39,571 nucleotides of DNA from a virus, in IMG/VR virus record IMGVR_UViG_3300031227_000006, positions 1 through 39,571 of that record. One strand, written 5' to 3'. How positions within the stretch are numbered: position 1 is the first letter of the stretch; the number at the start of each line of letters is the position of its first letter. Shown piece by piece: positions 1 to 38,607 of this stretch. Under the pieces are notes generated by a model. That model searched no databases. It saw only the letters and a program-made list of their open reading frames with translations, and was not told the DNA's origin. Position numbers and translations under genes: made by a program.

Positions 1-86
1 CGGTTGTCGTTACTTCTGTCGTGGTTGGTTCTGCTGTCGTTGTTGGCTCAAGCGTTGTCGTGGGTTCAAGCGTTGTCGTGGGTTCA
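1..86. repeat. Terminal direct repeat, left copy (86 bp)
   Basis: Identical to 39486-39571, and also present internally at 39219-39304. It marks either a circular molecule or an assembly break inside the Thr-repeat array. Confidence 0.95.
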
Positions 87-349
87 AGCGTTGTCGTGGG
101 TTCAAGCGTTGTCGTCGGTTCAAGCGTCGTCGTGGGCTCAAGCGTTGTCGTGGGTTCTTGTGTAGTCGTCAGGGCTGCCGTGGTTGTTAGTTCAGCGGTT
201 GTTGTCGGCGCTGCTGTGGTCGTTGCCGCTTCGGTCGTTGTCACGGCCCCTATCGTTGTAGTTGCCACCTCACGCGGGATGTATTGTATATCTTCCCCCC
301 AATGAATTAGAAACGTCGGTGTAATTGGTGATAACTGAACTTTTGACAT
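1..349 (-). CDS. Thr-rich lectin-domain fibre, N-terminal part (gene continues across the contig join)
   Basis: The start is ATG at 349, preceded by a GCAGGGG ribosome binding site. The first ~30 residues (MSKVQLSPITPTF...) form a short N-terminal domain, followed by Thr-triplet repeats: TTT separated by AAP, AEL, AAL, QEP and then six LEP spacers, encoded by an 18-bp DNA repeat. The frame stays open to base 1. Bases 1-86 are identical to 39486-39571, and merging that overlap keeps the frame, so the full gene is 349..1 plus 39485..38608, 408 codons before the stop. Repeat copy number at the join may be collapsed by assembly. It lies in the late operon after the DUF2190-like gene, which suggests a virion, probably head-associated, fibre. 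The mucin-like stalk is seen directly; the virion location is inferred. Confidence 0.75.
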   Translation of the reverse strand, partial: MSKVQLSPITPTFLIHWGEDIQYIPREVATTTIGAVTTTEAATTTAAPTTTAELTTTAALTTTQEPTTTLEPTTTLEPTTTLEPTTTLEPTTTLEPTTTLEPTTTAEPTTTEVTTT

Positions 350-361
350 TATACCCCTGCT

Positions 362-526
362 TTATGCTGTTGTAGTTGCGGCGTCCGTCGTTGTGGCTGC
401 TGCTGTCGTTGTCGGGCCTGTTGTGGTCGGCCCTGCTGTTGTCGTTGACCCGGCAACAAGAACACCCCATCCGGATACCGGAAAGAAGACGTCGGCGGCT
501 TTTACACCGCCGACTTTTCTCTGTTT
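362..526 (-). pseudogene. Orphan Thr-triplet segment without a usable start
   Basis: Between the DUF2190-like gene and the lectin fibre, one minus frame is open from 526 to a TAA at 362. It encodes VFFPVSGWGVLVAGS followed by TTT blocks spaced by AGP, GP, AAA and DAA, ending ATTTA. There is no in-frame ATG, GTG or TTG. An ATG at 470 lies in another frame and is followed by four G; losing one G would give MGVLVAGS plus the Thr array (37 aa). It could be a decayed or frameshifted repeat protein, a sequencing error in the G run, or a leftover duplicate of the DUF2190 tail. Confidence 0.45.
491..520. terminator. Hairpin with flanking A and T tracts after the DUF2190-like gene
   Basis: A perfect 8-bp GC-rich stem (GTCGGCGG/CCGCCGAC, 8-nt loop). 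On the plus strand it is followed by TTTTCTCTGTTTTT; on the minus strand by the weaker GTCTTCTTT. It is strongest as a terminator of antisense transcription and may only attenuate the late transcript, which must pass through it to reach the tail genes. Confidence 0.55.
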
Positions 527-530
527 TTAT

Positions 531-968
531 TTAACCGCCTGTGGTCGTCGCGGCTGCCGTGGTCGTCGCGGCAACGGTGGTCGTCGGTGCAACGGTGGTC
601 GTCGCGGCTGCTGTGGTCGTCGCCGTCGCACTGCCCGCGCAAGGCTGAAGCCAAACGGATGCTGTTGCATCTGCTGCGGGCTTCGGCCTGTTGGCAAACC
701 CTGCCAGGACGTTAGCACCGGCAACGCCGGTAAGCTGCGCATTGCCAATATCCCAATACAACGGCCATCCGTCAACCCACGCTTCTGCGTTGTTGGCGGC
801 AATGGTGCAAGCGCCGCGAATATAACACTCGCCGCTTGCTCCGTCTGCGATATCGGATATCGCAACGCGGACACTTCCGCCCGCTACAATAACACCACCT
901 GAGGCAACGGCGGCGCCCGATATGTTATCGGTGGTTAGAATCAACCCAGGCTGGTCATAATTAATCAT
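531..968 (-). CDS. DUF2190-like head decoration/stabilisation protein with Thr-rich tail
   Basis: The protein has 145 residues. The N-terminal ~110 residues (MINYDQPGLILTTDNISG, then AVASGGVIVAGGSVRVAISDIADG, GEWYIRG-like GECYIRG, and AEAWVDGWPLYWD) match the pattern of DUF2190 proteins, small capsid-associated proteins usually encoded just after the major capsid gene, as here. The C-terminus is a run of TTT triplets separated by AAA, VAP and VAA, ending TTTGG. The RBS is GGGGAGCAAGTAAC before the ATG. The Thr-rich tail is not part of typical DUF2190 proteins and links this gene to the other mucin-like virion proteins. The fold assignment is from family memory. Confidence 0.75.
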   Translation of the reverse strand: MINYDQPGLILTTDNISGAAVASGGVIVAGGSVRVAISDIADGASGECYIRGACTIAANNAEAWVDGWPLYWDIGNAQLTGVAGANVLAGFANRPKPAADATASVWLQPCAGSATATTTAAATTTVAPTTTVAATTTAAATTTGG

Positions 969-1018: not shown

Positions 1019-1033
1019 CAAGGCTAAATGCCT
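1019..1033 (-). other. Small hairpin after the capsid stop codon
   Basis: AAGGC-ATTTA-GCCTT, 5-bp stem, directly after the capsid TAA and without a T run. The rest of the 969-1032 gap holds only the RBS of the next gene. Confidence 0.35.
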
Positions 1034-3372
1034 TAAGTGGTGGTCGTGGTGTCATCGCCTGAAACGCGGACAAGACCGCGATAATCAATGGCTTTGGCTA
1101 CGATCTGATGGCGGACTTTGAACTTTTTCGCGTCCGTGTCAAAGTCGGTTTCTTCCTCGAGAACTGGTTCGCGTTCGCCTTCCAAGAAGCATACGTCAAC
1201 TGTATCAACCTGGTTCGGGTCTGCGGCGAGATACCATACCTGCGAACTGGTCTGGTCGAGGTGCGGGCTGGCGATCAGGTTAAAGAAACCCGCGAACGGA
1301 TTCGGAGTCAACGGGTTCAAGTCGGTGTCCGGATCGTTTACGGAGGTCAAGAACTGACGCCCATAAACTTCGCGGCCCTTCGGAACGATCATGTGTCGCG
1401 GATCGTTGCCGATAAGCGTCGAGCCGTCAATGTCCGTCTGCGTTCCCATCGCGGCCATAATCGGCGCGAGGGTTGCAACGGAAATGTTGCCAACAAAATC
1501 GTTGTTGTGGTTCGCCCCGTCAAAGATCGCATTGCCGTCAGACAGGTTCGCGTTGTTGGTGAGGATCGCGTAGGCAACCTGGTCTTCCAAGTATTTAGCC
1601 TTTGCGCCCATTTTCTGCATGATGGTCGAGAACGCGCTCAAGTCATCGTTGATCATCATTTCACGCGTGAACTTCAGCCCTTTGCCGTATTTCGCGAGGG
1701 AATAGACTTCGCGGTTTTCCGTGAGCTTGCCGTAAGTATATTCGCCGCCTTCGTTGATCTGTGCAAGGTCTGGCGCGGCTGAAAGCAGAACCTTAGAAAC
1801 CTGCTTGAAGTCAGCAGCCGTGGTTTCTTTCGCCCACATATTCCAGGTTATGGGGGTGATTTCGTAAGACTGACGCAGCGACTTGTTGAGAACGTTCGCC
1901 AGAATAAACGGGAAGTCGGAAGTGCTCATTGCGAGAAAGGCCATGTTGCCTTTAGCGCGACCGGAAAGCATCATTTTGTTGAAACAAAGAGAAACAACTT
2001 CGGTCTTCGGGATTTCTCGACCGGCAATGCCGAACTGACAGAGATATTCCCGACCAATCTCGAGCAAGCTCATGTGCTTAAAGCCATTGGCTCTTTCACA
2101 TGGTTTGCCAACATTAAGGAATTCGCCGTCAGTGAGTTTGCGCGGGCTGAACAAACCGGACCGCAGCGAGATTGCATCGCTGATACCGTCGCCCAGGGTT
2201 GACAGGTTCAGGTCATCGCCGACCTTTGTTCTTGACACGGGTTCGCCTCCCTCCAGTTTCTTGACGATTTCCTGGAACATCACTGTCGTAACGCCAGAAT
2301 CCGCAAGCGACTGACAAAATGCCTGTTCCATTCCATTCTTTTTGCCGAGCATCGCAATGTTTGCGCGGCGGTTTTTGTCAGAAGTCAGGAACTGTTCCTG
2401 TATCTGTTTTGCGGAAAGAGCCTCTTCAGGCACGACAACGGCTGCCGGGTCGGTTACGATTTCGGGCTCCGGAACGACTGCCGCTTCTTCTGCGGCTTTC
2501 TCGGCCCATATATCGTTTGCGCGGCTTTGACGGCTTACCTCGTCGGGGTATTTTTCCATCATGGTGGAATCCGCAACGAAACGAGCCTTGAACTGCTCTT
2601 CCGTTTCGAGCGCTTCCGGGGTAATGTCCGGAATGACAATCGGGGCTTCTACGTCAACAACTGCTTCGGGATCGACGATAACGTCGCCTTCCGCAAGCAA
2701 GACGGCCCGCGCCTTCTTGAACTGTGCCGGCTTCAGTTCCATCAGATACTTCAACGTGTCCTGGTCGGAACTACCTTTTGAAAGCCCAACGCTTTCAAGA
2801 TGCTTCCTGAGTTTCGGATCGATCATGGTTGAGCCTCCTTGTGATAGTAACCCGCCGGGATTTGCTCCGGCATCGCCTACAAAGTCAACAGCGTGAAGCA
2901 CGGCCACACGGCCTAAAAGATTCTCCCCGCTTTTCTCAAATTTAGCTTTTGCAAATTTAATACTGAGGCCGATTGCGGTTGGGTCGTCTTCCGCAATGTC
3001 TAACAGGTAATCGCGCATGTTGCCCTTCGGACCATCCGGACGAGCGGCATACTTGCCAAAAAAGATATCAGCCTTAATCTGGTTTCCGTCTTTCCTGAAA
3101 TTCTTTGCCCGGCCAAGCAACACTTCAATTTCATCAACCATCGGTGCCGCTAACATGCCCCCGGCTAACTCCGGATGCGTGAAGCGAACCTTTAGACCGT
3201 TGGCATGTGAATTGCCCATTTCAAGAACCTGATTGAGCATAACATCGTCAATTACGAAACCATGACCGGACGCCGGCCCGCCTGTGATCACGCTGGCGTT
3301 ATACAAGACGCCATTTACGCGATCCGTGCGGACTCCTGCCATATCTCCAGTGCGTAAACTGATTATGTTCAT
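1033..3372 (-). CDS. Prohead protease - major capsid protein fusion
   Basis: This is a 779-residue polyprotein. Residues ~1-180 look like an S78-type prohead protease: His66 in VRFTHPELAGG and Ser137 in AIGLSIKF fit the catalytic His and the GLSIGF-type Ser. Residues ~185-330 are charged and helical and resemble a scaffold (delta) region. Residues ~340-779 resemble a Mu gpT/HK97-fold capsid (NRRANIAMLGKKNG, GREVYGRQFLTSVNDP, NPFAGFFNLIASPHL). The last residues are GDDTTTTT, an unusual five-Thr C-terminus. It overlaps the portal gene by 4 nt. The protease, scaffold and capsid are presumably separated by self-cleavage during maturation. The order portal, protease-capsid, DUF2190 is standard for head modules. 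Confidence 0.85.
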   Translation of the reverse strand: MNIISLRTGDMAGVRTDRVNGVLYNASVITGGPASGHGFVIDDVMLNQVLEMGNSHANGLKVRFTHPELAGGMLAAPMVDEIEVLLGRAKNFRKDGNQIKADIFFGKYAARPDGPKGNMRDYLLDIAEDDPTAIGLSIKFAKAKFEKSGENLLGRVAVLHAVDFVGDAGANPGGLLSQGGSTMIDPKLRKHLESVGLSKGSSDQDTLKYLMELKPAQFKKARAVLLAEGDVIVDPEAVVDVEAPIVIPDITPEALETEEQFKARFVADSTMMEKYPDEVSRQSRANDIWAEKAAEEAAVVPEPEIVTDPAAVVVPEEALSAKQIQEQFLTSDKNRRANIAMLGKKNGMEQAFCQSLADSGVTTVMFQEIVKKLEGGEPVSRTKVGDDLNLSTLGDGISDAISLRSGLFSPRKLTDGEFLNVGKPCERANGFKHMSLLEIGREYLCQFGIAGREIPKTEVVSLCFNKMMLSGRAKGNMAFLAMSTSDFPFILANVLNKSLRQSYEITPITWNMWAKETTAADFKQVSKVLLSAAPDLAQINEGGEYTYGKLTENREVYSLAKYGKGLKFTREMMINDDLSAFSTIMQKMGAKAKYLEDQVAYAILTNNANLSDGNAIFDGANHNNDFVGNISVATLAPIMAAMGTQTDIDGSTLIGNDPRHMIVPKGREVYGRQFLTSVNDPDTDLNPLTPNPFAGFFNLIASPHLDQTSSQVWYLAADPNQVDTVDVCFLEGEREPVLEEETDFDTDAKKFKVRHQIVAKAIDYRGLVRVSGDDTTTTT

Positions 3373-7330: not shown

Positions 7331-8172
7331 TATGCGGACCTCTTCTTTTTGCGTTTAGGCTTATCTCCGGACGCAAGCAACTTCAACACGCCTATTACTT
7401 CCGATTTCACGATTGCTTCAATCTCCGCAGCTGTTCGCCCCTCGCAAACCGGCGCCACAGCTTGAGGCACAGCAAGCAACGCAGTCTTGATTTCCGTCGC
7501 AATCTTGGTGAAAGAGTCTTGAATCTCGCTGGCTTTTATCCATCCAGCATCGTGTTGGCGGATGGATTCCGCGTCTTTTTCCAATTTGCGTAACTGTTCT
7601 GAGATGGTCGTCCACCCCTTCGCCAACGCCGCAGCTTCCGCGATAGGATCGCGTTCATCCTCGAAGGTAGGATTGTTGATACAGTCGGCCCACCTGATGT
7701 AAGCTGCCTTTTCAGATTCGCGAAACCGCTCAAGCATTGCCTCATATCCTGCTTCGATATTCTTAATGTCAATTTGGTTATCGCCATTATGACCGCCTTT
7801 CTCGTCGTTTGTGGCGCCGATTGTGTCCGCGTCTTTGTCCGCAACTTTCGCCGTTTTACGCGCAACAGTCGCGATTTTCCCCTTCGCGGATTTCTTTTTG
7901 GCAGAACTTTTGGCCGGAGTCTTGTCTTTCGTTTTGGCGTTCGGCTTCGCTTTTTTTTTCGCGCCCGGCAAGGTTTTCGGCGCGATCCCTTCGCCGGCAA
8001 GCCACAACTTAACCTCACGAATATCAAACACTCGAAACGGACGGCCCCCCGCTGTCCGTTTCTTTTGGCCCGAAGGACAGCCCTTTTCCAGCCAACGGCG
8101 AACCTGGCGGTCAGAGACGCCAAGCGCCAAAGCCAAGTCGGAAGTCGATTTATCGCGAAACGGACGCGTCAT
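7330..8172 (-). CDS. Terminase small subunit, Nu1-like, with a Lys/Ala-rich linker
   Basis: The protein has 280 residues. Residues ~8-62 form a winged helix-turn-helix (SDLALALGVSDRQVRRWLEKG ... RPFRVFDIREVKLWLAG), as in gpNu1-type DNA-recognition subunits. Residues ~70-115 are a Lys/Ala/Pro-rich stretch resembling histone H1 tails, and the C-terminal half is helical and charged, probably for oligomerisation and binding the large subunit. It is immediately upstream of the GpA-like gene with a 1-nt overlap. The H1-like linker is longer than expected for Nu1 and may bind DNA non-specifically. Confidence 0.8.
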   Translation of the reverse strand: MTRPFRDKSTSDLALALGVSDRQVRRWLEKGCPSGQKKRTAGGRPFRVFDIREVKLWLAGEGIAPKTLPGAKKKAKPNAKTKDKTPAKSSAKKKSAKGKIATVARKTAKVADKDADTIGATNDEKGGHNGDNQIDIKNIEAGYEAMLERFRESEKAAYIRWADCINNPTFEDERDPIAEAAALAKGWTTISEQLRKLEKDAESIRQHDAGWIKASEIQDSFTKIATEIKTALLAVPQAVAPVCEGRTAAEIEAIVKSEVIGVLKLLASGDKPKRKKKRSA

Positions 8173-8178
8173 TTTTTA

Positions 8179-8313
8179 TCACTCGATCAGAGAAAAAACT
8201 TGCCCACACTTACCCGTGTGACGTGGGGGGTTCAGGAGGACCCATTTTGTTTGGGTGATACCTTTTCTCTCTTGTCCGGTGTCCGGTTGTGTGGGTGGTT
8301 TGCTGTTGTTCAT
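8179..8313 (-). CDS. Small leading late-operon protein (44 aa)
   Basis: ATG at 8313 follows a good RBS (AAAGGAAGAGCCA). The protein begins MNNSKPPTQPDTGQERKG and ends GKCGQVFSLIE before a TGA at 8179, 6 nt from the small-terminase start. It is the first gene after the candidate late promoter. It is polar, with one Cys and no recognised family. It could be a small late regulator or a leader peptide. Confidence 0.6.
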   Translation of the reverse strand: MNNSKPPTQPDTGQERKGITQTKWVLLNPPRHTGKCGQVFSLIE

Positions 8314-8349
8314 TGGCTCTTCCTTTCGTTTGTTCGCGTTTAAGTCTTT

Positions 8350-8379
8350 AGTATACTACTACTTATATCTCTTGTGCCA
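8350..8379 (-). promoter_or_regulatory. Candidate late promoter
   Basis: A TATACT -10 box at 8355-8350 has only a poor -35 match (GGCACA or TGGCAC at 17-18 bp). It heads the packaging/late genes and sits next to a 31-bp inverted repeat. The weak -35 suggests activator dependence. Confidence 0.5.
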
Positions 8380-8381
8380 GT

Positions 8382-8412
8382 TTCATACTAACTTATGCCA
8401 AATTAGTATGAA
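8382..8412. promoter_or_regulatory. 31-bp inverted repeat upstream of the late operon
   Basis: Perfect 10-bp arms TTCATACTAA and TTAGTATGAA flank an 11-bp centre and overlap the last codons of the methyltransferase gene. The distance to the -10 box (about 30 bp) fits an activator or repressor operator; a transcript hairpin is the alternative. Confidence 0.6.
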
Positions 8413-9637
8413 GCTCCACGGCCTCTATTCGCTTCCCTATCCATGCCATGACAGGCACGGCCATGCTGTTGCCTAACGCCTTGTATCGCGGCCCGTCTGC
8501 GGCTGGTTTGCCCCGGTAATTTATCAACGTGTATTCGTCCGGGAATCCCTGCAACCTCTCGCATTCAAGCGGCGTCAGTCTGCGCACTGCAAGGCTGCTT
8601 GCAACCATTGTCGTGTTGATTCCACCGTCGCCTTTGTCGCCCGAATGGGATGGGTTGGCGCGCAGCGTGTAGCCTAAATCTGAGCCAGCTATGCCTACTG
8701 GCTTATATGCAATCGCCGGGTTGCTCGATGGTGATGCTTGTAGGCTCTCGGTCATGTCTGAATTCATCGCCATCGTTTGCTGTGCTGACTTGTTCCAGCC
8801 AAATACGATTGGTTGTTCATGGTTACAGTTTAATGTCGGGCTCATATCTTTGCCCACCTCTGCCCCTGCTTGCCCGTGGGCCAACGTAACGGGTATACAA
8901 AAGTCAAGCTCATTACAGTTGCCCGCTGTCCGCGTTAATCCGCCTCCGCTTGCGGCAAGCGTCCCTGCAACGCGTGGCGTGGCTATATAAGTATCGTAGT
9001 CTTCTAAGTTGCTCGTTCCGTCACGCGCTCTAAGGCAGCGCGCAACATTTCTGGAAGCTTCTTTCCCCTCTTCGCGGCTCGGCGGAGTATTCCTGCGCAT
9101 GCTTTCGGTGTCAAAAAGAACCGCTGCGGAATTTCGCCAGTCTCCAATATTTGCGACAACGAACACACGCTTGCGTCGTTGGGCCAAACCGAAGTATTGA
9201 GCGTCCAACACTCGGTAGGCGAACCCATACCCGAGTTGCGCCAGCCCTCCAAGGAAGGCTCCAAAGTCCCGTCCGCCGTTGGATGACAGGACGCCAGGCA
9301 CATTTTCCCAGACAATCCACCTTGCGCGTAATCTTTGAGCAAGTCTAAGAAACTCAAGCGCCAGGTTTCCACGAGCGTCATCCATTCCGCCTCTGAGTCC
9401 GGCAACGGAGAAAGACTGGCAAGGTGTCCCGCCGACCAGAAGGTTAACTGGTCCGTGTTCTCTGATTGTTTCATCACTAATCCTTGTCATATCGCCCACG
9501 TTCGGTAATCCCCAGCGTTCATCCACCACCGCTGCGGGAAAGGGTTCTATCTCGCTTGTCCATGCACAGCGCCAGCCAAGCGGTTGCCATGCCGCGTGTG
9601 CTGCGCCTATGCCGTCGCATACGCTTGCGTATATCAT
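8393..9637 (-). CDS. DNA (cytosine-5) methyltransferase
   Basis: The protein has 414 residues with the C5-methyltransferase motifs in order: I, MIYASVCDGIGAA (1-13); IV, GGTPCQSFS with catalytic Cys73; VI, VWENVPG (~109-115); VIII, QRRKRVFVV; IX/X, RRLTPLECERLQGFP and YKALGNSMAVPV. The long variable region between VIII and IX (~200-340) would be the target-recognition domain. It likely protects phage DNA against host restriction. It is the last gene of the early operon and overlaps the preceding gene by 4 nt (ATGA). No cognate endonuclease is nearby. Confidence 0.95.
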   Translation of the reverse strand: MIYASVCDGIGAAHAAWQPLGWRCAWTSEIEPFPAAVVDERWGLPNVGDMTRISDETIREHGPVNLLVGGTPCQSFSVAGLRGGMDDARGNLALEFLRLAQRLRARWIVWENVPGVLSSNGGRDFGAFLGGLAQLGYGFAYRVLDAQYFGLAQRRKRVFVVANIGDWRNSAAVLFDTESMRRNTPPSREEGKEASRNVARCLRARDGTSNLEDYDTYIATPRVAGTLAASGGGLTRTAGNCNELDFCIPVTLAHGQAGAEVGKDMSPTLNCNHEQPIVFGWNKSAQQTMAMNSDMTESLQASPSSNPAIAYKPVGIAGSDLGYTLRANPSHSGDKGDGGINTTMVASSLAVRRLTPLECERLQGFPDEYTLINYRGKPAADGPRYKALGNSMAVPVMAWIGKRIEAVELHTNLA

Positions 9638-10032
9638 GCTTTCTCAGCCTTCGCGATTGCTTTTTCGATAATATCAATGTGACAATTATCGAAGTGTTCA
9701 ATATCGTTTAAACAGGTGCTTGATATGGCCTTGCATTGTGTGCATTTAAAATATGGGGAATCGTAGGTAAAGAATCGCCCCTTTTGCCCGGCCAACTTCA
9801 ACGCCTTCAACAACTCGGCATTTTGGGCCTTTAATGCTTCGGCTTCGGCAATCGCTTTGCGTTCTCTGTTATAAATATCTCTGACACACAAATACAGAAA
9901 CGTTTTTGTAACCGTGCATTGCGGCATGTTGCCGCGTTCGTCTTCCTTAACAGACCAGACGTCTCCACTGCCGTTTTTGATAAGCGACACGGCCCCTCGC
10001 TTCAACATCGTAACAACCGATTCAACCTTCAT
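9634..10032 (-). CDS. Hypothetical protein with a single CxxC motif
   Basis: The protein has 132 residues; RBS AAGGGGTGAAGT. The N-terminal ~45 residues (VVTMLKRGAVSLIKNGSGDVWSVKED) look like a small beta domain, followed by a coiled coil (ERKAIAEAEALKAQNAELLKALK) and a C-terminal segment with FKCTQCKAISSTC. No family is recognised. It overlaps the methyltransferase gene, suggesting coupled expression. Confidence 0.7.
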   Translation of the reverse strand: MKVESVVTMLKRGAVSLIKNGSGDVWSVKEDERGNMPQCTVTKTFLYLCVRDIYNRERKAIAEAEALKAQNAELLKALKLAGQKGRFFTYDSPYFKCTQCKAISSTCLNDIEHFDNCHIDIIEKAIAKAEKA

Positions 10033-10051
10033 ACTTCACCCCTTCATAAAT

Positions 10052-10117
10052 AACATCCCCGCAAGCCCAGGGCGCCAGTCCTAATATCCTTACGGATACA
10101 CGGCCTGCGAGGATGTT
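10052..10117 (-). ncRNA. Structured intergenic RNA element
   Basis: On the minus-strand RNA a 16-bp stem (10117-10102 with 10067-10052, starting AACAUCC and closing GGAUGUU) contains two G-U wobbles that would be mismatches on the plus strand. Inside it is a perfect hairpin UAUCC-GUAA-GGAUA with a GNRA tetraloop, and a GGCGCC palindrome. It fills the gap between two genes and has no T tract, so it is not an ordinary terminator. An mRNA processing site or cis-regulatory RNA is possible. Confidence 0.65.
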
Positions 10118-10121
10118 TGTT

Positions 10122-10748
10122 TCATTTGCTTGCGTCCTTGTCGTCCGTTAGCTCTTCAATCGGAACGTGTTCTTGTGCGTCGTTGGTCTTCAACCCGGCA
10201 ACGTCCAGATTAGTAGTGTCGTCTTCCGTTGATTCATAACCCATTGACCCGGCAAGATTAAGCTGATCTTCGGTCTTGACAACTGCCGGGACAAACAGCT
10301 CTGTGTGTCTGGAATCAGGCGACACCGCTTCTTCGGGCATGAACTTCGCTTGATACAGTGCAAGCATACTGTCTGCTACTGTGCCAGCCCATGCGGCGGC
10401 CTCTTGCGGAAGTATCATCAACAATGCTTCTTCTTTTTCTGGAAAGTATGCCGAACACCCTCCCGTAATCCCCGTCAATGCCGCTGAAGCATACGCACAC
10501 CATGCCTCTTGTAAATCCGGGTCTTTGATTTCCGCAAGCTTCCTGTCGGCTACTTTCATCATTTCATCTGCCGTTGCATGAGCTCGTGCGGTTGCGACTT
10601 GTGCGCTGCATACGGTTGTGATCTGGTTGTCGCCGTCAAAATGAACCAAGCTTCCCCCGTGGAGAAACCCGGTCATTGCGGCCTGGCTGAACCATATCCA
10701 CCTCGTCCGGCGGTCTTCATCGCGTGTCAATTCTTGCATTATTCCCAT
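10122..10748 (-). CDS. Hypothetical protein with two internal repeats
   Basis: The protein has 208 residues. Two ~55-residue repeats are visible: WIWFSQAAMTGFLHGGS...ATADEMMKVADRKL (~17-71) and EAWCAYASAALTGITGG...GTVADSMLALYQAKF (~81-137). The tail is acidic and likely disordered (KTEDQLNLAGSMGYESTEDD, ELTDDKDASK). RBS AAAGGAAAAACG. It sits between RusA and the structured RNA in the replication operon. The function is unknown. Confidence 0.75.
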   Translation of the reverse strand: MGIMQELTRDEDRRTRWIWFSQAAMTGFLHGGSLVHFDGDNQITTVCSAQVATARAHATADEMMKVADRKLAEIKDPDLQEAWCAYASAALTGITGGCSAYFPEKEEALLMILPQEAAAWAGTVADSMLALYQAKFMPEEAVSPDSRHTELFVPAVVKTEDQLNLAGSMGYESTEDDTTNLDVAGLKTNDAQEHVPIEELTDDKDASK

Positions 10749-10778
10749 CGTTTTTCCTTTCTGATTTGTTTGAATGAA

Positions 10779-11210
10779 TTACCAATTTACTCTGATTACT
10801 GTTCTTGGATTGTTGTTTTCTTGTCCGCAATAAAACTTTCTTGCGGTTCCGATCTTCCACACTTGCGCGTCATCGTGCCATGCTATCCCGTTCAGCGCGT
10901 CTTTTACCAGCTTAATCAGGTTGTCCAAGTCCGGCGTTTTCAGGTGCGGCCTTAGTGGGCGCGGCGTTCTTTTCCGAAAGTCCGACTTCGGACATGCGAA
11001 ATAAAACTCTACTTCAACCTCGACGGGCGCTCCTTTCGGTATGGGCTTCTTGAATTCTTGTAAAGTATAAAACCCGATAGTCTCTTCTTTCGCTTTCGTC
11101 TTGGCCGGCGTGTATGTGATCTTGTGGCCGTGCCTGTTCTTCCCCGCCCGCGCCCGCAGCTTTGATACCGGCTGCCCTGGTATGATTATTGTTTTATGCA
11201 TCTGCCGCAT
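10779..11210 (-). CDS. rusA: RusA-like Holliday junction resolvase
   Basis: The protein has 143 residues (140 if the second ATG at 11201 is used). The diagnostic segment TPDLDNLIKLVKDALNGIAWHDDAQV carries the conserved acidic residues of RusA that bind Mg2+ at the junction; the N-terminus IIIPGQPVSKLRARA is also typical. It resolves branched recombination/replication intermediates before packaging. It overlaps the preceding small gene by 8-17 nt. Confidence 0.92.
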   Translation of the reverse strand: MRQMHKTIIIPGQPVSKLRARAGKNRHGHKITYTPAKTKAKEETIGFYTLQEFKKPIPKGAPVEVEVEFYFACPKSDFRKRTPRPLRPHLKTPDLDNLIKLVKDALNGIAWHDDAQVWKIGTARKFYCGQENNNPRTVIRVNW

Positions 11211-21277: not shown

Positions 21278-21409
21278 TCATTTGTCGTGACCATAGACTT
21301 TCACCCAAATCATAAAACCAAACCAAAGTATAGCCGTATGAGAATATTCACCTCTTAATAGTGATCCTATTATCCCCACCACAGCGATAAAGTATCCTAA
21401 AGCTTTCAT
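21278..21409 (-). CDS. 43-aa membrane peptide
   Basis: ATG 21409 overlaps the TGA of the methyltransferase-GT gene (ATGA) and has GTTAGGGGT upstream. MKALGYFIAVVGIIGSLLRG and HTAILWFGFMIWVKVYG give two hydrophobic helices. Function unknown. The remaining 21206-21277 gap shows nothing but the next gene's RBS. Confidence 0.65.
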   Translation of the reverse strand: MKALGYFIAVVGIIGSLLRGEYSHTAILWFGFMIWVKVYGHDK

Positions 21410-22815
21410 ACCCCTAACGCCCCCGAAATGCGTTCTACGGTCATTTTTGGCGAATGCCGGCGTATTACGGTGCCTCTGATTTGGCTTCGGTCGATTGCCA
21501 GGCATCCTTTCCAATTCGCTGCCAGGTCGTCAGCGGCTTTGTCGCTCCACACAAGCCCCTCGTTGATTCCGCGTTCGCGGACAGGCACGGTTATACCCGT
21601 AAGTCCGTGTATGAGCACCGGACACGACTTCTCGTCCGATATTATCGGGCATCCCATAAGCCCGATTTCCATTGCGGCCAGTGGATAATTGTCTTCCCTT
21701 GACACGTAGAAACACGCCCGCGACCGGCGCGCGGCCTCGAGAAGCGCTTCGCGCGTATACCCGCCATACGTTATTTTGATATGTTTTGGGAATATCTCGC
21801 ACAATCTATCTGCGATTGCTTTCTCCTGCTTGCCGCCTTTAACGTAAATCATTGCATCGCAGTCGATCTCTGCGTAATGCTTAAGCATTTTCCACGGCCC
21901 CGGCATCGGAATATCAAGGATATAATGGTTTGTCTGCTGTTTGAAGTGCTTGCGGCCAAGCTCCGCATACCATCGGGACAGCCAGAATATTGCTTTGTAT
22001 CCTTCATAATCGCATATCTCGCGTTCATGCGCGCCGGCACCCGGCGATTGTGAGTTGGCGAATACGACGTTTGGCCCTAATGCGATTGATCGACCTGCCC
22101 GGATCGCGTCTACAAGCACCTGCAAATGCGAATAAAGCGGAATCCAGACAACTTTACTATCCGGATTAGGCGAACCCGTTATAGAGTATCGCGGGTCTTT
22201 GGCCAGCGCGTCCTTAAACGCACCCATAAGCACCGTTGGCCCGCTTGTGGAGTCAAGGTCGCCTTGTGCAACGATGTTGACAGGTGCCGCCTGTCTCGCC
22301 TCACCACGGCGCAACACGGCAAGCCCGTTGTTGTTGTCGAAATACTCGGCATCCCAGGGCTCATTCTCGAGAAATTCCTGAATTGCGGTCTTTACTCCTG
22401 GGAAGGACACCGTATCATGCAAGATTATAACCCCTGTATCGCTGACGAGTTGTCCAAATTTTTTTAGTTCGTTAAGCGTATGCTCCCTTTCATGCGATGA
22501 GTCGATCACTAAGACATCAACTTCTTCGGTGAATTCAGGCGTCCACGTCATATCATGAGCCGTAACGTATAGCCAGTTGTCCGCTGCGAACTTTGCGCGT
22601 GTCCCGGCATACTCTAAATTATCTACGGAAGTCAGCTTTCCGCCTGTCACGGTCAACCCGGCAAGTATAGCACAAGTAATCCGCCCATGCCCCACGCCAA
22701 GCTCTAACGCCTTCTGCGCATTGGTTTCAACCACAAGATCGCGTATCGTCAAAAGGTGTTCGTTGTTGTCCGAAGGCGTCTTTGCCGTTCGTGCCAGTTC
22801 TGCAAGTAAATCCAT
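21406..22815 (-). CDS. Class I methyltransferase fused to GT4-like glycosyltransferase
   Basis: The protein has 469 residues. Residues ~1-170 are a class I SAM methyltransferase-like domain: glycine-rich loop KALELGVGHGR (~35-45), SVDNLEYAG acidic loop, DVLVIDSSHEREHTLNEL and GVIILHDTVSFPGVK, reminiscent of cephalosporin-hydroxylase-type methyltransferases. Residues ~190-469 are GT-B/GT4-like: ...YGGYTREALLEAARRSRAC and SREDNYPLAAMEIGLMGCPI, an (E/D)x7E-like donor site. A natural fusion suggests glycan transfer coupled to methylation. It lies in the glycosylation operon. Confidence 0.78.
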   Translation of the reverse strand: MDLLAELARTAKTPSDNNEHLLTIRDLVVETNAQKALELGVGHGRITCAILAGLTVTGGKLTSVDNLEYAGTRAKFAADNWLYVTAHDMTWTPEFTEEVDVLVIDSSHEREHTLNELKKFGQLVSDTGVIILHDTVSFPGVKTAIQEFLENEPWDAEYFDNNNGLAVLRRGEARQAAPVNIVAQGDLDSTSGPTVLMGAFKDALAKDPRYSITGSPNPDSKVVWIPLYSHLQVLVDAIRAGRSIALGPNVVFANSQSPGAGAHEREICDYEGYKAIFWLSRWYAELGRKHFKQQTNHYILDIPMPGPWKMLKHYAEIDCDAMIYVKGGKQEKAIADRLCEIFPKHIKITYGGYTREALLEAARRSRACFYVSREDNYPLAAMEIGLMGCPIISDEKSCPVLIHGLTGITVPVRERGINEGLVWSDKAADDLAANWKGCLAIDRSQIRGTVIRRHSPKMTVERISGALGV

Positions 22816-25098: not shown

Positions 25099-26139
25099 TT
25101 ACCCCTTCCCGCTTTCTGTTATCTCCGGAATACCGATTACCGTATCAGGATCAAACAATATATCGTGTTCCCGGCGTCCGCAATTACCGATTCCCCTTCT
25201 CTCGTTTGCCATTGGCAAATCTATATTCCGTCTACAACAATCACCCGTGCGTCGGTCTTTTTCGCAGAGATGCGCCCATTCCGGATATGGCGGTAATACT
25301 CCGTTTGTCGCATGACAGAGCCTTGCGTAATACTGACGGTATTTGAGTTTAAAATCTGCCGCGATCAGTTCCTTGTCCTCGCCCCACTTGCGCCCGTTTA
25401 GAGCGAAATCTATTTTGAACAGGTCCGGGAACGGCTGCCGCGTTGTGCCGTCGTGGTTGATGTATGTTACCAGGTCCGGGTTCCATTGCGGGTAATAGTG
25501 GCTGTCAATAGCGCCCAGGTGTTGCGCTTGTATTTGCGGCTGTCTCAAGACGTATGCGCCGTATTGCTTCAGGAACAGCACCATGTCGGGCCGTGTGCCT
25601 GGCAGCAAGTGCGTATCGTGTTCGATAGCACCTCGGGTTGTCATCCAGAACGGTTCTGAGCCACTATCAGCAATACCAAATTCAAGCTTGTTATTACTTC
25701 TGCAAGTGAAATTTTTTGTTACTTTTGTTGTATGACACCAGTCATGCTGATGGGAGCAAAGCCACCTGATCGGCTCACCTGCATTATTTGCTATCTGCCC
25801 ATAACAATGGATAAGGGAAGGCACCGCTCCCGGCTGAAGAAGCATATCGCTTTCGACCTGTACAAGAATCTCCGCGTCTGTTTCTTGCAAAAAGTGCGTA
25901 AACATTGCCCTGCGCAGAAATCCGATATGTCCTTTAGGGACGGTGATTGCTTCATCAACCAGCCCTTCGGCGAGGTAATCGGCTATAATTTGTTTAGTGT
26001 ATGGATCGTCGGAAGCGTCGTCCATCACAACAACGCGCGCATCACCCTTGTTGAAATAACACACCGACCCCAAACACAACGCCAGCATTTCCGGCCGGTT
26101 CCAACTCAAGACATAAATAATTGTTTTCATCGGTTTCAT
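25099..26139 (-). CDS. GT2-like glycosyltransferase
   Basis: The protein has 346 residues. The N-terminus TIIYVLSWNRPEMLALCLGSV and RVVVMDDASDDP (GT-A nucleotide-binding strand), GHIGFLRRAMFTHFLQE, and LVQVESDMLLQPGAV (~93-105), where ESD stands in place of DxD, fit a GT2-type fold. The C-terminal ~150 residues contain several Cys/His (WAHLCEKDRRTGDCC, RRGIGNCGRREHD) and a PLxGTRPDM loop. The start with RBS GAGGGGAAACG is used. Sugar and acceptor unknown; part of the glycosylation operon. Confidence 0.78.
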   Translation of the reverse strand: MKPMKTIIYVLSWNRPEMLALCLGSVCYFNKGDARVVVMDDASDDPYTKQIIADYLAEGLVDEAITVPKGHIGFLRRAMFTHFLQETDAEILVQVESDMLLQPGAVPSLIHCYGQIANNAGEPIRWLCSHQHDWCHTTKVTKNFTCRSNNKLEFGIADSGSEPFWMTTRGAIEHDTHLLPGTRPDMVLFLKQYGAYVLRQPQIQAQHLGAIDSHYYPQWNPDLVTYINHDGTTRQPFPDLFKIDFALNGRKWGEDKELIAADFKLKYRQYYARLCHATNGVLPPYPEWAHLCEKDRRTGDCCRRNIDLPMANERRGIGNCGRREHDILFDPDTVIGIPEITESGKG

Positions 26140-28424: not shown

Positions 28425-28565
28425 TTAATATAATTTCGCTTTCCTCGCCAATACTTCCATCAGTTTTACTTTTTGGTCATCTGTCAACTTCTCAAAACCA
28501 CGAGTAACAACTCTATGCTTTCGCCTAATCTCTTCTACTCTCTTACGCTTATCAACAGCATTCAC
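28425..28565 (-). CDS. Small basic protein, GTG start (46 aa)
   Basis: GTG 28565 is preceded by AGAGGGGGAATCACCTT and overlaps the radical SAM gene end. MNAVDKRKRVEEIRRKHRVV and LTDDQKVKLMEVLARKAKLY form two basic helices. No family recognised; might bind nucleic acid or the preceding enzyme. Confidence 0.55.
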   Translation of the reverse strand: MNAVDKRKRVEEIRRKHRVVTRGFEKLTDDQKVKLMEVLARKAKLY

Positions 28566-29958
28566 AAGGTGATTCCCCCTCTTCTTTGCCTAACAGCTTT
28601 TCAGCCGATAGTATCGAATACGCCCGCATTGCCTGTTGCCAAAAATGCGGCATGAGTTCACATGCAAAGGTATTCGGCATAAAATGCTTCTCGTCTTGAA
28701 TCATTGTTTCCCATGTGCAAAATGAATGACAGCCGAGAACAGCCGGACACATCGAGCACTCTTCGCGGAATTGATACCGCAAGTCAAAATTACGAATACG
28801 GTTTACCAATTCCAGCGACGTATACCCTTCTTGTATGGTTCCGAGGCGATATTCTGTATTACTTCGCGGGTTGCAGAATCGGTGACAGGGCCATAAATTG
28901 CCGCTTGTGTCAACCGCGATCCTGTTTACGCCCGCACTGCAAAGAGACCGCCGGCGCACACCTGCCTTAAGCCTTTGGACCATGTTGCGTATATGGTAAA
29001 GCCCGTAGGCCTTGCCCTCTCGCGCGCGCTTAATATACCAGTCTGTCGCTATTGTAATCTGTTCGCGGTATATCTGGAACTGTTCTTTTGTCCATTTCAC
29101 ACCGCCTGCGGGTATTGAATTAACCGTATGAAACCCGATTTCGTCACACAGAAACCGGATTGAATCCGCGAGAAGATGCACCGTTGCCGGCGTTACCGTC
29201 ATTCTGCATGATGATGGACGTTTGGCGAGCATCATTTTTACGTTATCGAATACGCTTTCGTCGGTGCCGCGGGCTATTCGTTGCGCTTCCGGGTTCCCGT
29301 CGATTGATGGCGATATCTTTACTTTATGCTCAAACAACCAGTCCAGCTTTTCGGCGGTTAGAAGCGTCATATTTGTAACAATGGTGAACCCGAAATCATT
29401 CTCCGGATATTTGCCAGAGGTCCATTCAACCGTTTCTTTTAACGATTCCCATTCGAGAAGTGGTTCGCCGCCGTAAATGTTTATACGTCTTAGAGTTACG
29501 GGCTCTGTAATCATAACCTTTTTGCCGTCTTTTTTTACAATCCGGTTCCGTTTCGCACCCGTGGATTGCTTCATAAACCAATGAATCGTATTCTTCGTGC
29601 GGGACATATCCGGCCCGGCGCCCGCACCGTCAGCGGCATAGCAAGCCTTGCATTTCAGGTTGCATTTGTCCGAAAGGTTCATATCGAGCACAAGCGGTTT
29701 TGGTATGCGCATATTCCCAACAGGGCAAGAGCCTTCGCGGATGCGTTCGACAATGTTTTTGTTATCTATTTTACAAATTCCGGAAGGTCCGCAGGTTTTG
29801 CATTTTGATTCGGGATCGTCAATGCGATTATCGCAGAAAAAGCAAGCTGTGGTATACAACCGCATTTCTGCTTTAGTCGGTAGGTTCTCTCTAATCGCGC
29901 CTATTGTATCCGATAAGGCTTTTGCATTATCTTCTGATAAGCTCATTAATAAGTCCAT
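28552..29958 (-). CDS. Radical SAM/SPASM protein
   Basis: About 468 residues from ATG 29958 (29946 is equally possible). An N-terminal Cys cluster (CFFCDNR...CKTCGPSGIC, ~39-62) precedes the radical SAM motif CNLKCKAC (~99-106, CxxxCxxC), GGEPLLEWESL, and a C-terminal SPASM domain: CSAGVNRIAVDTSGNLWPCHRFCNP and CSMCPAVLGCHSFC...CELMPHF. The tail ends ESPCECC. SPASM proteins of the anSME/peptide-maturase type modify proteins using 5'-deoxyadenosyl radicals and auxiliary Fe-S clusters. It is directly downstream of a Cys-containing partner gene, overlapping it. The substrate is not identified. Confidence 0.88.
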   Translation of the reverse strand: MDLLMSLSEDNAKALSDTIGAIRENLPTKAEMRLYTTACFFCDNRIDDPESKCKTCGPSGICKIDNKNIVERIREGSCPVGNMRIPKPLVLDMNLSDKCNLKCKACYAADGAGAGPDMSRTKNTIHWFMKQSTGAKRNRIVKKDGKKVMITEPVTLRRINIYGGEPLLEWESLKETVEWTSGKYPENDFGFTIVTNMTLLTAEKLDWLFEHKVKISPSIDGNPEAQRIARGTDESVFDNVKMMLAKRPSSCRMTVTPATVHLLADSIRFLCDEIGFHTVNSIPAGGVKWTKEQFQIYREQITIATDWYIKRAREGKAYGLYHIRNMVQRLKAGVRRRSLCSAGVNRIAVDTSGNLWPCHRFCNPRSNTEYRLGTIQEGYTSLELVNRIRNFDLRYQFREECSMCPAVLGCHSFCTWETMIQDEKHFMPNTFACELMPHFWQQAMRAYSILSAEKLLGKEEGESPCECC

Positions 29959-30385
29959 CCTTTTCGCCTTGCGGCAGCCCTGACGCCTCCAGCACGTCAC
30001 CAAATAAAGCCGCCACTACCCCTTTTTCGTGTCCGCCGTTCTCTTCCGTAATCGAAGTCCATCTAAAGAAAGCATCTTTAAGTAACCTTTTGACTTCCTT
30101 CTTTGGTAAGCCTAATGCTATCAGCTTTTGCATAATATTTTTGACATTTGCCGGGTTTGCGGTCTGGTATCGCGGGCATTCGCCTGCGGTAAACCTTGAC
30201 CTTAATGCCGTAATCAATAGCGTTTTAAGCCCTTCCGAGTCTTCAACGGGCAAAAAATTGAACCCGTCCGCTTTGCATTGATCGCACGTTGCAACACCTA
30301 CGGACACATTAAACCCGGCAGATACGCTCAAATGGCCACACTTTACCGTTGTTTCTGACATCTTATTTTCATATTGACATTTCAT
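29927..30385 (-). CDS. Cys-containing protein preceding the radical SAM gene (152 aa)
   Basis: First gene after promoter P30.4. ATG 30385 leaves a leader of only ~13 nt; ATG 30361 is an alternative. The N-terminal ~45 residues have KCGHLSVSAGFNVSVG and ATCDQCKADG (possible metal site), and the C-terminal half is helical (IMQKLIALGLPKKEVKRLL, DAFFRWTSITEENGGHEKGV). The overlap with the radical SAM gene suggests partnership, as a substrate carrier, recognition element or substrate. No known peptide precursor pattern is clear. Confidence 0.6.
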   Translation of the reverse strand: MKCQYENKMSETTVKCGHLSVSAGFNVSVGVATCDQCKADGFNFLPVEDSEGLKTLLITALRSRFTAGECPRYQTANPANVKNIMQKLIALGLPKKEVKRLLKDAFFRWTSITEENGGHEKGVVAALFGDVLEASGLPQGEKDGLINELIRR

Positions 30386-30440: not shown

Positions 30441-31724
30441 TTACGGCGCAACACAAGCATCAATCCCATTCCAATCATATATTACGCCAAACCCGGCTTC
30501 TCCGCCACAGTTCCCATCACGCGAAGGAATTAGTTCATCGCAAATAGTTGCCGTTTCATCATACGTGCAAGAGCCAGAATAGGACGCACAAGAAGGAACA
30601 GCTGACTGTTTCGCCGTGCAAGGAACTATTATTGTGCCGGATAAAGCACCGGCGCAAAGACAATCCCAACAACAAAGGGCAGAACCTTCGGTTGTGGTGA
30701 CGCCTTCGGTCGTTGTCACGCCTTCCGTGGTCGTCGGGCCTTCCGTAGTGCTTGCTTCAGTTGTGGATGCTGCCGTGGTTGTCGGGCCGGTCGTGGATGT
30801 TAGAATCGTTGTTGTTACTTCTGTCGTTGTCGGGCCGGTTGTTGTGAAGTCATCAAGCAACGTGCATTGAACTTCGTCGCAAAGCATGCAAGTGCCTTCG
30901 TCGCACAGTGAGCACTTGCCCTGATCGCAGAACGTGCATTTCCCCTGATCAAGATTAATACACTGCCCTTCGTCGCAAGTGTGACATTCGCCTTCGTCGC
31001 ATAAGTCGCAATCCCACTCGTCACATACATTACATTGGCGCGTTGTTGTGGCGAATCCTGGCGTAGTGACGATCCCTGCTGTTGTGGTTACACCGCCAGT
31101 TGACGTTACACCTTCCGTTGTGGTCGGGCCGGTTGTAGTTGGGCCTTCTGTGGTCGTCTCTGCCGTGGTCGTCGGGCCTTCTGTTGTCGTTGGCCCGGTG
31201 GTTGTGGGCTCTGCCGTTGTCGTCGGGCCTTCTGTAGTTGTCGGGCCTGTCGTGGTCGGCCCTGCTGTGGTGGTTGGGCCTTCGGTCGTTGTTGGCCCGG
31301 TCGTTGTGGGCTCTGCCGTGGTCGTCGGCCCTTCGGTTGTGGTTGGCCCGGTCGTTGTGGGCTCTGCCGTTGTCGTTGGGCCTTCGGTCGTTGTCGGGCC
31401 TGTCGTGGTCGGTCCCGCCGTCGTCGTTGGGCCTTCGGTCGTCGTCGGCCCGGTCGTGGTCGGTCCCTGCGTTGTTGTTACGCCTGGCGTCGTCGTTACG
31501 CCCGCCGTCGTTGTCGCAACGCCTTCTGTTGTCGTTGCTACACCTTCCGTCGTGGTCGCAACGCCCGAGGTGGTAGTTACGCCCGCTGTGGTGGTTACGA
31601 CGGTGCCGGTCGCGTCTAATTGATAAACACCATCGCCCAACGCGGTTAAAGTCAAGCCGGTTCCCATCTTTATAACGCCTGGCGTTTGTTCAACTGCGCT
31701 TTCGTCCACCCATACTAATGCCAT
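30441..31724 (-). CDS. Mucin-like Thr/Cys-rich fibre protein (427 aa)
   Basis: Residues 1-40 are a small domain (MALVWVDESAVEQTPGVIKMG, GVYQLDATG). Residues ~40-230 are TTT triplets spaced by EGV, AGP, GP, EGP and AEP. At ~231-294 are eight Cys octapeptides of consensus CxxCDEGx. A second Thr-rich block (~295-350) leads to a C-terminal domain rich in Cys (SALCCWDCLCAG, CASYSGSCTYDETATICDE, NCGGEAGFGVIYDWNGIDAC). It is the last gene of the late operon, after tail genes, so a tail fibre or surface protein is likely. Extremely Thr/Pro/Glu-rich composition makes it a prime O-glycosylation candidate. No known phage family recognised. Confidence 0.8.
   Translation of the reverse strand: MALVWVDESAVEQTPGVIKMGTGLTLTALGDGVYQLDATGTVVTTTAGVTTTSGVATTTEGVATTTEGVATTTAGVTTTPGVTTTQGPTTTGPTTTEGPTTTAGPTTTGPTTTEGPTTTAEPTTTGPTTTEGPTTTAEPTTTGPTTTEGPTTTAGPTTTGPTTTEGPTTTAEPTTTGPTTTEGPTTTAETTTEGPTTTGPTTTEGVTSTGGVTTTAGIVTTPGFATTTRQCNVCDEWDCDLCDEGECHTCDEGQCINLDQGKCTFCDQGKCSLCDEGTCMLCDEVQCTLLDDFTTTGPTTTEVTTTILTSTTGPTTTAASTTEASTTEGPTTTEGVTTTEGVTTTEGSALCCWDCLCAGALSGTIIVPCTAKQSAVPSCASYSGSCTYDETATICDELIPSRDGNCGGEAGFGVIYDWNGIDACVAP
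30843..31034 (-). repeat. Array of eight Cys octapeptide codon blocks
   Basis: Eight 24-bp units encode CNVCDEWD, CDLCDEGE, CHTCDEGQ, CINLDQGK, CTFCDQGK, CSLCDEGT, CMLCDEVQ and CTLLDDFT. They lie between two Thr-rich segments. Confidence 0.85.
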
Positions 31725-35514: not shown

Positions 35515-36459
35515 TTACGGTGCGAATGTGGTCGCCGACGTTGTGTCAAGCGTAACCGTTAAATCGTCATCATTCAGGCCGAAATCAATCGCGTTGATTG
35601 CGAGGCCGTTTCTGTCGCCTTCCTGCGGATTGAGCCACTGACAGCCGCCAGCCGTGAACGTTACGGAATCATCGCCGCTGCCACATGCCGCGCTGAATGC
35701 CGCCTCGGTCCCGCCGATCCACTCGCCGAAAATGTCCTTCGTCGCGACAAGCGTTGCCTCCGGGTTGATGGTTCCGACAGGGCGCCTGTTTGCAATGACG
35801 GCATACGAGTAGCCGCTATCGGTTGTCGAATCCTCACGGACTATGACATTATTGCCCGTGTCGATGGTGAGCATTTCAATGCGAGGCGTCCAGGTGCCGA
35901 TCTGGAAAGCGGAATCGACAAAGCGGAGAACTGGAGCGGCCGGATACGTCGGCGCAAGAATCGCAACGTCGGTCGGCTCGGCCCATATACCCGTAAATGT
36001 AAACTCTGCGGATACGCGTTTGCCGGAAACCATTGTGAATTTGACATTCCCCATCGCGCCGTAAATGCACTTGAACAGTCCATTTTCATACATGCCGATA
36101 GTGATTGTGTGCTGTGTCGCGCCGGCGCAACCAGGCGGGATAACGGACATCGAGAACACGCCACCCGTATCGTCGCCAATGCCGCAAGCCGGCAAAAGCA
36201 CGGTTGCCCATAGCGGAATAAGGGAATCCGCAATCAGTTCCGTTGTGAACGTGCAAGTTCCGAGTCTGGAATCAGGGACTGCAGGCAGATAACCCATGCC
36301 GCCCTGTTGATCCCGGTCTACCATTTCAGCGGTTTGCTGAATGATCGGATCAAAAACATTGATTGTCGCGTTTGCCGCAAGCAACGATTCCTTTGTTCCC
36401 GGCACGGCTTCGGCCTTGACTGCAATCGTTCGCACTCTTGAGAGTAGTGGGCATGTCAT
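35515..36459 (-). CDS. Major tail tube protein
   Basis: The protein has 314 residues and a beta-rich pattern (TCTFTTELIADSLIPLWATV, GNVKFTMVSGKRVSAEFTFTG, AINAIDFGLNDDDLTVTL). Position upstream of the tail chaperone and after a tail-terminator-like gene supports tail tube. The short 35448-35514 gap has only an ACTCTTAACTCTTAACT direct repeat and the next RBS. Confidence 0.75.
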   Translation of the reverse strand: MTCPLLSRVRTIAVKAEAVPGTKESLLAANATINVFDPIIQQTAEMVDRDQQGGMGYLPAVPDSRLGTCTFTTELIADSLIPLWATVLLPACGIGDDTGGVFSMSVIPPGCAGATQHTITIGMYENGLFKCIYGAMGNVKFTMVSGKRVSAEFTFTGIWAEPTDVAILAPTYPAAPVLRFVDSAFQIGTWTPRIEMLTIDTGNNVIVREDSTTDSGYSYAVIANRRPVGTINPEATLVATKDIFGEWIGGTEAAFSAACGSGDDSVTFTAGGCQWLNPQEGDRNGLAINAIDFGLNDDDLTVTLDTTSATTFAP

Positions 36460-37231: not shown

Positions 37232-37813
37232 TTAACGTTTTTCAAGGAATGCCGCTTTCGCCGCCTTCCGTTCGTAATGCAATTCAACGCGCTGCTTAAG
37301 TCGTTTGGCCAAAAATTCATCGCCCTGACGTATGAGCGATTCCAGTTGTCCGCTTTCAAGAACAACCTGCGTAATGCTTTCCGTTTTCAATTCGCGAAGC
37401 GGGAGTCTTTCGCTTGTTTTTCTCACAAATGCTCCCCTATGACCCGTGGGCATTGTCGCAATAAACGCGTGTCTATGAAGTTTCTTCTTCTTGCCGCGTC
37501 CAATTATTACGCCAACCTCATTCTGCTTCATGTGCTTATTATGGCTGATCGGCCAACCGAACCGCCCGCCAGTTATTCTCCCGGTCAATCTGGTTCGCCT
37601 GGCTTTTTTGATCCACATGCGGCGCCTGATTTGTTTTTGCTTTAAGCCGATCTTTTTTGCCGCCAGCTTCGTAATCAAGCTTCTAAGCTTTTTTAACGTA
37701 TCGTTTAACGCCGCGCCCGTGATAACGTCCAAGTCTCTCGGGTCAAGTAATTTCTCCAGTTCTGCAAGTTCGCCTTTATCAATTTCAATTTCTAAGAATT
37801 GTGCTTGTGACAT
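37232..37813 (-). CDS. Minor tail protein Z (GPZ)-like
   Basis: 193 residues from ATG 37813 (TAATG overlap). AALNDTLKKLRSLITKLAAK, KQKQIRRRMWIKKARRTRLT, and GHRGAFVRKTSERLPLRELK match the GPZ/tail-completion pattern. Very basic. Works at the head-tail interface. Confidence 0.75.
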   Translation of the reverse strand: MSQAQFLEIEIDKGELAELEKLLDPRDLDVITGAALNDTLKKLRSLITKLAAKKIGLKQKQIRRRMWIKKARRTRLTGRITGGRFGWPISHNKHMKQNEVGVIIGRGKKKKLHRHAFIATMPTGHRGAFVRKTSERLPLRELKTESITQVVLESGQLESLIRQGDEFLAKRLKQRVELHYERKAAKAAFLEKR

Positions 37814-38073
37814 TATCTGCACTCCAATAACATCATACCTTCATCCTGCCATAGTATCCGGTTTATTTGCACTAATACAGGTCCGGCGCCTATGCGCTTT
37901 TCAAGTAATAGCTGATCGCCGCCCGTGTCTACTTCGGCAGACGACACGCCCGGATATTCTCCGCTGTCTGAGTTGGAAACCCACACTTGGATAATATCAG
38001 TCATCTCGCGACCATTCTCGGCTTGTATGAAAGCCGGGTTACGGTCGATGACTGCTTTGATATCTCTTGCCAT
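37813..38073 (-). CDS. Small head-tail connector protein (86 aa)
   Basis: MARDIKAVIDRNPAFIQAEN, MTDIIQVWVSNSDSGEYPG, and GPVLVQINRILWQDEGMML. Beta-rich, similar in size and position to head-tail stopper proteins; TAATG overlaps on both sides. No confident family. Confidence 0.6.
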   Translation of the reverse strand: MARDIKAVIDRNPAFIQAENGREMTDIIQVWVSNSDSGEYPGVSSAEVDTGGDQLLLEKRIGAGPVLVQINRILWQDEGMMLLECR

Positions 38074-38570: not shown

Positions 38571-38607
38571 GATATTACCTTTTATTCCTTTTTGTCTGCG
38601 CGGTCTA

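Follow-up and report, generated by a model that had tools for sequence, protein, structure and literature searches.

Virion glycosylation of tailed phages has been demonstrated in few isolates, and the virion glycans of mycobacteriophages described by Freeman et al. are said to be O-linked. In animals, the polypeptide GalNAc-transferases (ppGalNAc-Ts), which act on mucin tandem repeats, usually carry a C-terminal ricin-type lectin domain. In the mycobacteriophages Che8, Corndog, and Myrna, phage enzymes glycosylate capsid and tail-tube proteins at their C-termini (Freeman 2023, as cited in PMC12619734 and PMC12363180). The DNA analysed here, the window, is an uncultivated bacterial virus record of 39,571 bases, and every array feature in it lies on the minus strand (Table 1). 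Several of its particle proteins carry arrays of threonine triplets (TTT), and the same genome encodes a glycosyltransferase (GT) that resembles the mucin-initiating enzyme of animals. Therefore, the particles are probably sugar-coated by the phage itself. Judged from the sequence and a predicted fold, the TTT arrays are likely to be O-glycosylation acceptor tags and stalks on the virion exterior, to which the phage ppGalNAc-T-like GT would add the first sugar.

The logic is the same as in mycobacteriophage virion glycosylation, with different enzymes. The glycan sites of mycobacteriophages, on capsid and tail-tube C-termini, fall on the same kinds of protein that are tagged in L004, a relative of the window, and in G055, a second lineage. 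Ser/Thr C-termini of the mycobacteriophage type are also present on the window capsid and cement proteins, but not on its tail tube. Unlike in the mycobacteriophages, the putative acceptors here are long Thr or Ser arrays, and fibres, cement, and neck proteins bear them too, whereas the capsid and tail proteins of Che8 end in the short sequences NKTGS and YSDGS. In addition, a profile of phage GTs (A3, described below) finds no match in the Che8 and Myrna genomes. Eukaryotic ppGalNAc-Ts resemble the window GT in other respects. They are its nearest solved structures both by sequence and by predicted fold, they have the same DxH motif and distal His, and in both systems the likely acceptors are Thr/Pro- or Ser/Pro-rich repeats. 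In contrast to the eukaryotic enzymes, the window GT has no ricin-type lectin domain, carries an extra N-terminal domain, and would work in the bacterial cytoplasm during infection instead of the Golgi.

Threonine-triplet arrays in the window

A sequence-only reading of this DNA had proposed Thr-triplet arrays on several proteins, and a count of non-overlapping TTT blocks across the window ORFs confirms them. Outside the array genes, 34 ORFs totalling 9,869 aa contain a single TTT, at the capsid C-terminus, so the arrays are far beyond chance. The DUF2190-like protein is a Phage_cement_2 protein (PF09956, E 6.5e-15) whose tag has five TTT blocks instead of the six first read. The five blocks assigned to the orphan segment agree with our count, and the more than twenty given for the fibre become 32 in a 408-aa protein once the contig ends are joined, a copy number that is uncertain because the join falls in the repeat. 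Two features had been overlooked: the TTTTT end of the capsid and the array of a 427-aa protein, which we propose as the first gene of a putative modification island.

Bases 1-86 of the window are identical to bases 39486-39571, an exact 86-base terminal overlap within the fibre TTT array. The contig therefore appears circular, though joined through a repeat only, and since the overlap lies inside the array, both the circularity and the array length are possibly effects of assembly. The C-terminal domain of the fibre had been labelled a lectin. This label is unsupported, as the domain has no match in Pfam or PHROGs and its fold prediction has a pLDDT of 42. The orphan array has no in-frame start codon and comes after a terminator-like hairpin; we read it as probably what is left, at the 3' end, of a tagged gene since lost, possibly the second cement copy. 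We also considered a frameshift that would join this array to the cement gene and rejected it, as stop codons lie in the intervening frames.

Table 1. Features of the window, with positions in its own numbering
Feature	Position	Strand	Remarks
Array fibre, 5' part	2-349	-	Connector N-terminal fragment (340-275), then TTT blocks; runs off base 2
Orphan array	365-451	-	Five TTT blocks; in-frame start codon absent
Terminator-like hairpin	491-514	-	Between cement gene and orphan array
Cement protein, Phage_cement_2	531-968	-	C-terminal tag of five TTT blocks
Protease-major capsid fusion protein	1033-3372	-	C-terminus TTTTT
Methyltransf_24 fused to a weakly GT1-like region	21406-22815	-	Candidate for glycan extension and methylation
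Second GT2-family glycosyltransferase	25099-26139	-	Candidate for chain extension
Glycosyltransferase (GT), 542 aa	26730-28358	-	Residues 211-491 ppGalNAc-T-like, DxH; candidate initiating enzyme
Radical SAM/SPASM protein	28552-30003	-	Best NCBIfam match PapB ranthipeptide maturase
Cys-motif protein, 152 aa	29927-30385	-	Aligned (28%) with the gene in the equivalent place of L123
427-aa array protein	30441-31724	-	37 TTT blocks, largest array of the window
Cys array of the 427-aa protein	30849-31040	-	Nine CX3D matches, most at a spacing of 8 residues; TTT arrays on both sides
Tail tube protein	35515-36459	-	Ends in TTSATTFAP, without TTT tag; L004 counterpart tagged
Connector C-terminal fragment	37813-38073	-	Residues 34-119 (38073-37816), now its own ORF; intact in L004, L005, L006
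220-aa gene	38073-38735	-	Inside the connector-splitting insertion
Array fibre, 3' part	38608-39571	-	LEP/TTT array and C-terminal domain

The claim that the arrays are not one DNA repeat stands for the 427-aa protein and fails for the cement and fibre proteins. Within the 427-aa protein, neighbouring triplets agree at their third bases as often as shuffled ones do (0.31 against 0.31), and 23 distinct DNA words are found among its 37 triplets. This indicates that the threonines were retained while the DNA drifted. The cement and fibre arrays contain recent 18-bp tandem duplications with near-identical units. Their adjacent triplets agree at third bases more than shuffled ones do, with values of 0.75 in the cement array and 0.48 in the fibre array (shuffled, 0.38).

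Gain and spread of the tags

Related phages were compared for gain or loss of arrays, as had been suggested earlier. Tags are present in L004, a relative at 57% capsid identity, and none were found in relatives at 41-49%. The L004 capsid ends in the TTT tag GTTVGATTTVAATTTA and its tail tube in VVAATTTVGATTTAGATTTA. L004 also has two copies of the cement gene, both TTT-tagged; one copy ends in the tag, and in the other the tag leads into a longer array followed by a further domain. No Thr tag occurs on the capsid of L307 (49% identity) or on those of L005 and L006 (41%), and the remaining capsid relatives that we inspected stop at the same homologous position, untagged.

The connector region preserves the trace of one such gain. 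A connector-region protein of 119 aa is a single ORF in L004 (8939-9298), L005, and L006. In the window, connector residues 2-23 form the start of the array fibre, the C-terminal fragment has become a separate ORF, and between the two fragments lie the array, the C-terminal domain of the fibre, and a 220-aa gene. The break maps to EATSTTAGLG in L004, a Thr-bearing stretch. At the sequence level, the split connector is direct evidence for an inserted array-fibre cassette. Together, the L004 tags, the untagged distant relatives, and the split connector gene show that arrays were gained and have spread among virion proteins. They give good support to the earlier proposal that an expanding cassette has been attached to several kinds of virion protein.

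A different ending was seen in the relatives that are free of Thr tags: the L005 cement protein (9454-9840) and the L006 cement and tube proteins (7864-8238 and 9746-10687) terminate in GSGSGS. These ends, and the TGS/DGS ends of Che8, are possibly another acceptor tag.

A ppGalNAc-T-like glycosyltransferase and its linkage to Ser/Thr arrays

All relatives of the window GT found by phmmer in the PDB are ppGalNAc-Ts (6s22, E 1e-7). Profile A3, which consists of nine phage GT sequences, also matches ppGalNAc-Ts best, over the full length and with an E value of 2.5e-33. The residues D97, H99, E213, and H237 are invariant in A3 and align with the DxH metal motif, the WGGE motif, and the distal His ligand of ppGalNAc-Ts. 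The AlphaFold2 model of the window GT has a pLDDT of 82.5, and its best 50 Foldseek matches in the PDB are all ppGalNAc-Ts. No ricin-type lectin domain was detected in the window GT, where only Glycos_transf_2 was found and about 50 residues follow the GT domain. The gene lies downstream of the 427-aa protein gene, after the Cys protein and radical SAM genes in that order. As a single query, the window GT retrieved only a near-identical contig from IMG/VR and nothing from 50,697 phage records, and DxH GTs of this type are nearly absent among these deposited records.

Profile-guided scans of IMG/VR, whose patterns had been built on the window GT, gave twelve DxH-type loci besides a near-identical copy of the window. 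In the stretches fetched, eight of the twelve contain Ser/Thr arrays under a strict rule (L143, L144, L145, L146, L147, L152, L153, and L154), and L162 contains looser TVTDEFT repeats. L147 and L123 are the same contig, and L123 had initially been picked up by its array, so L147 was omitted from the count. In this small sample of loci, on contigs that are fragments, Ser/Thr arrays occur in 7 of 11 DxH loci, compared with 1 of 9 non-redundant non-DxH GT2 loci that came out of the same scans (Fisher one-sided p = 0.025). The corresponding figure is 1 of 59 for random viral loci, which were drawn by a neutral 15-mer and are shorter than the DxH loci (Fisher one-sided p = 2e-6, or 1e-5 when the similar L152 and L154 are merged). 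The array ORF directly adjoins the GT in five loci (L144, L146, L152, L153, and L154). The reverse test agrees: a DxH GT is present in 9 of 46 array records, with L123 left out, versus 1 of 50 random records (p = 0.005). About 80% of the examined array records have no DxH GT. Conversely, three records with a DxH GT (G051, G063, and G064) have no array within the sequence read.

The loci also bear on which property of the arrays is kept. L152, L153, and L154 have in common a protein of ~500 aa with an array at one site. In L152 this array is mostly Thr-Pro; L153 and L154 have Ser-Pro instead. This exchange at the same site in homologues suggests that it is the hydroxyl residue that is conserved. 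In G055 (L146 and L255), the second lineage with DxH GTs, four proteins end in Thr/Ser tags, namely the head closure protein (PF05521), the tail tube (PF16461), and two further proteins. The G055 tail terminator (PF11367; L146 2105-3607) begins with a laminin-G-like domain and also carries a Ser/Thr array. The gene order of array gene, small Cys protein, and DxH GT is common to the window and L123, and the capsid and terminase genes of L123 seem, by inspection, unrelated to those of the window. Separately, a domain with CxxC and a YVTISG-like motif recurs after arrays (L144 4576-6585 and 6575-9949; L162 7400-8977) and is perhaps a shared fibre tip domain.

The arrays, their spread among virion genes, the predicted fold and motif of the GT, and its linkage to Ser/Thr arrays are observed, whereas the action of the GT on these arrays, the sugar used, the extension of the chains, and the purpose of the coat are inferred. 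In the infected cell, the GT would attach the first sugar to array threonines, and the nearby glycosyltransferase and methyltransferase genes may lengthen and cap the chains. Mucin-like fibres that are rigid, hydrated, and resistant to proteases would result, and the head would be coated with sugars. O-glycosylation is favoured by the ppGalNAc-T-like sequence, fold, and motifs of the GT, and by the linkage of GTs and arrays in both directions. The Thr-Pro/Ser-Pro exchange, the G055 tags, the randomised synonymous sites in the 427-aa protein, and the mycobacteriophage precedent argue for it as well. Counting against it are the untagged tail tube of the window, the missing classical ricin-type lectin domain, and L004, in which the tags are clearest and no GT was seen in a 15-kb fragment, together with the array records and DxH-GT records, described above, in which the partner was not seen.

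The main rival reading takes the arrays as Thr/Pro-rich linkers, flexible or extended and free of modification, which hold receptor-binding domains at a distance from the virion, with the GT unrelated to them. Many arrays do sit within longer proteins, where a spacer is plausible. Among the matches listed, at least, Thr-rich linkers are common in viral contigs, and no DxH GT was seen in most of these records. However, the tags that end the capsid, cement, tail tube, and head closure proteins connect nothing, which speaks against linkers for this group, and the linkage of DxH GTs to Ser/Thr arrays in unrelated phages is also contrary to this reading. We consider it unlikely.

Near-neutral growth of the arrays, through slippage at Thr codons or unequal recombination between them, would fit the near-identical 18-bp units and the raised third-base identity of the fibre and cement arrays. 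It does not fit the 427-aa protein, in which third bases are fully randomised and the threonines retained, nor the homologues whose common array site has Thr in some cases and Ser in others, nor the other ORFs of the window, which have no such arrays. As an account of the arrays it is very improbable. We likewise give little credence to a GT that acts on a host surface polysaccharide or on phage DNA and lies near the arrays through a shared accessory region. Phage GTs for serotype conversion and for DNA glucosylation are known (PMC12619734) and provide a precedent, to which the three DxH-GT records without arrays may be added. Nevertheless, the fold and motifs best match the polypeptide-modifying ppGalNAc-T family, and the non-DxH GT2s have no clear link to arrays.

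If the arrays are indeed O-glycosylated, diverse uncultivated phages would have a mucin-type route in which spreading acceptor arrays are combined with an enzyme related to animal GalNAc-transferases. Sequence rules could then predict coated virions. Such coats would be relevant to fibre stiffness, particle stability, and the immune recognition of phages, and the enzymes, being bacterially expressible, could be of use for producing mucin-like glycopeptides.

Cysteine motifs and a radical SAM gene

PapB joins Cys to Asp by a thioether in CX3D motifs (PMC9413430). The array protein of 427 aa contains nine CX3D motifs within a 64-residue segment. None of 20,000 shuffles of this segment reached nine, but the 8-residue repeat makes the matches dependent on each other. 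Like the PapA/PapB ranthipeptide system, the window has CX3D motifs near a radical SAM/SPASM gene whose best NCBIfam match is PapB. Unlike in that system, the score against the PapB model is 158 bits, below the curated cut-off of 340 bits, and a virion fibre would replace the short precursor peptide as substrate. From its sequence, the CX3D segment is possibly a thioether-stapled part of the fibre, a lead from a single case. To our knowledge, this pairing of a CX3D array with a neighbouring radical SAM gene would be the first hint of a RiPP-type cross-linked virion protein.

Searches for further cases gave little. An alignment of the Cys-motif protein found no new loci as a query, radical SAM genes are not clearly enriched in DxH records, and no further CX3D array was found close to the radical SAM genes in the remaining DxH loci, in gut phages, or in Campylobacter phages. 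A wider picture, in which one fibre is modified twice, by O-glycans on TTT and by radical-SAM staples on CX3D, and in which mucin-type cassettes with gene-hopping tags are spread widely among uncultivated phages and absent from collections of isolates, is conceivable, though we would sooner doubt it than accept it. Two of the DxH loci place the two enzyme types in close association. In L153, the radical SAM gene overlaps the GT gene, and in L143 an ORF of 1139 aa (7577-10996) combines a radical SAM/SPASM region with two tandem DxH GT domains.
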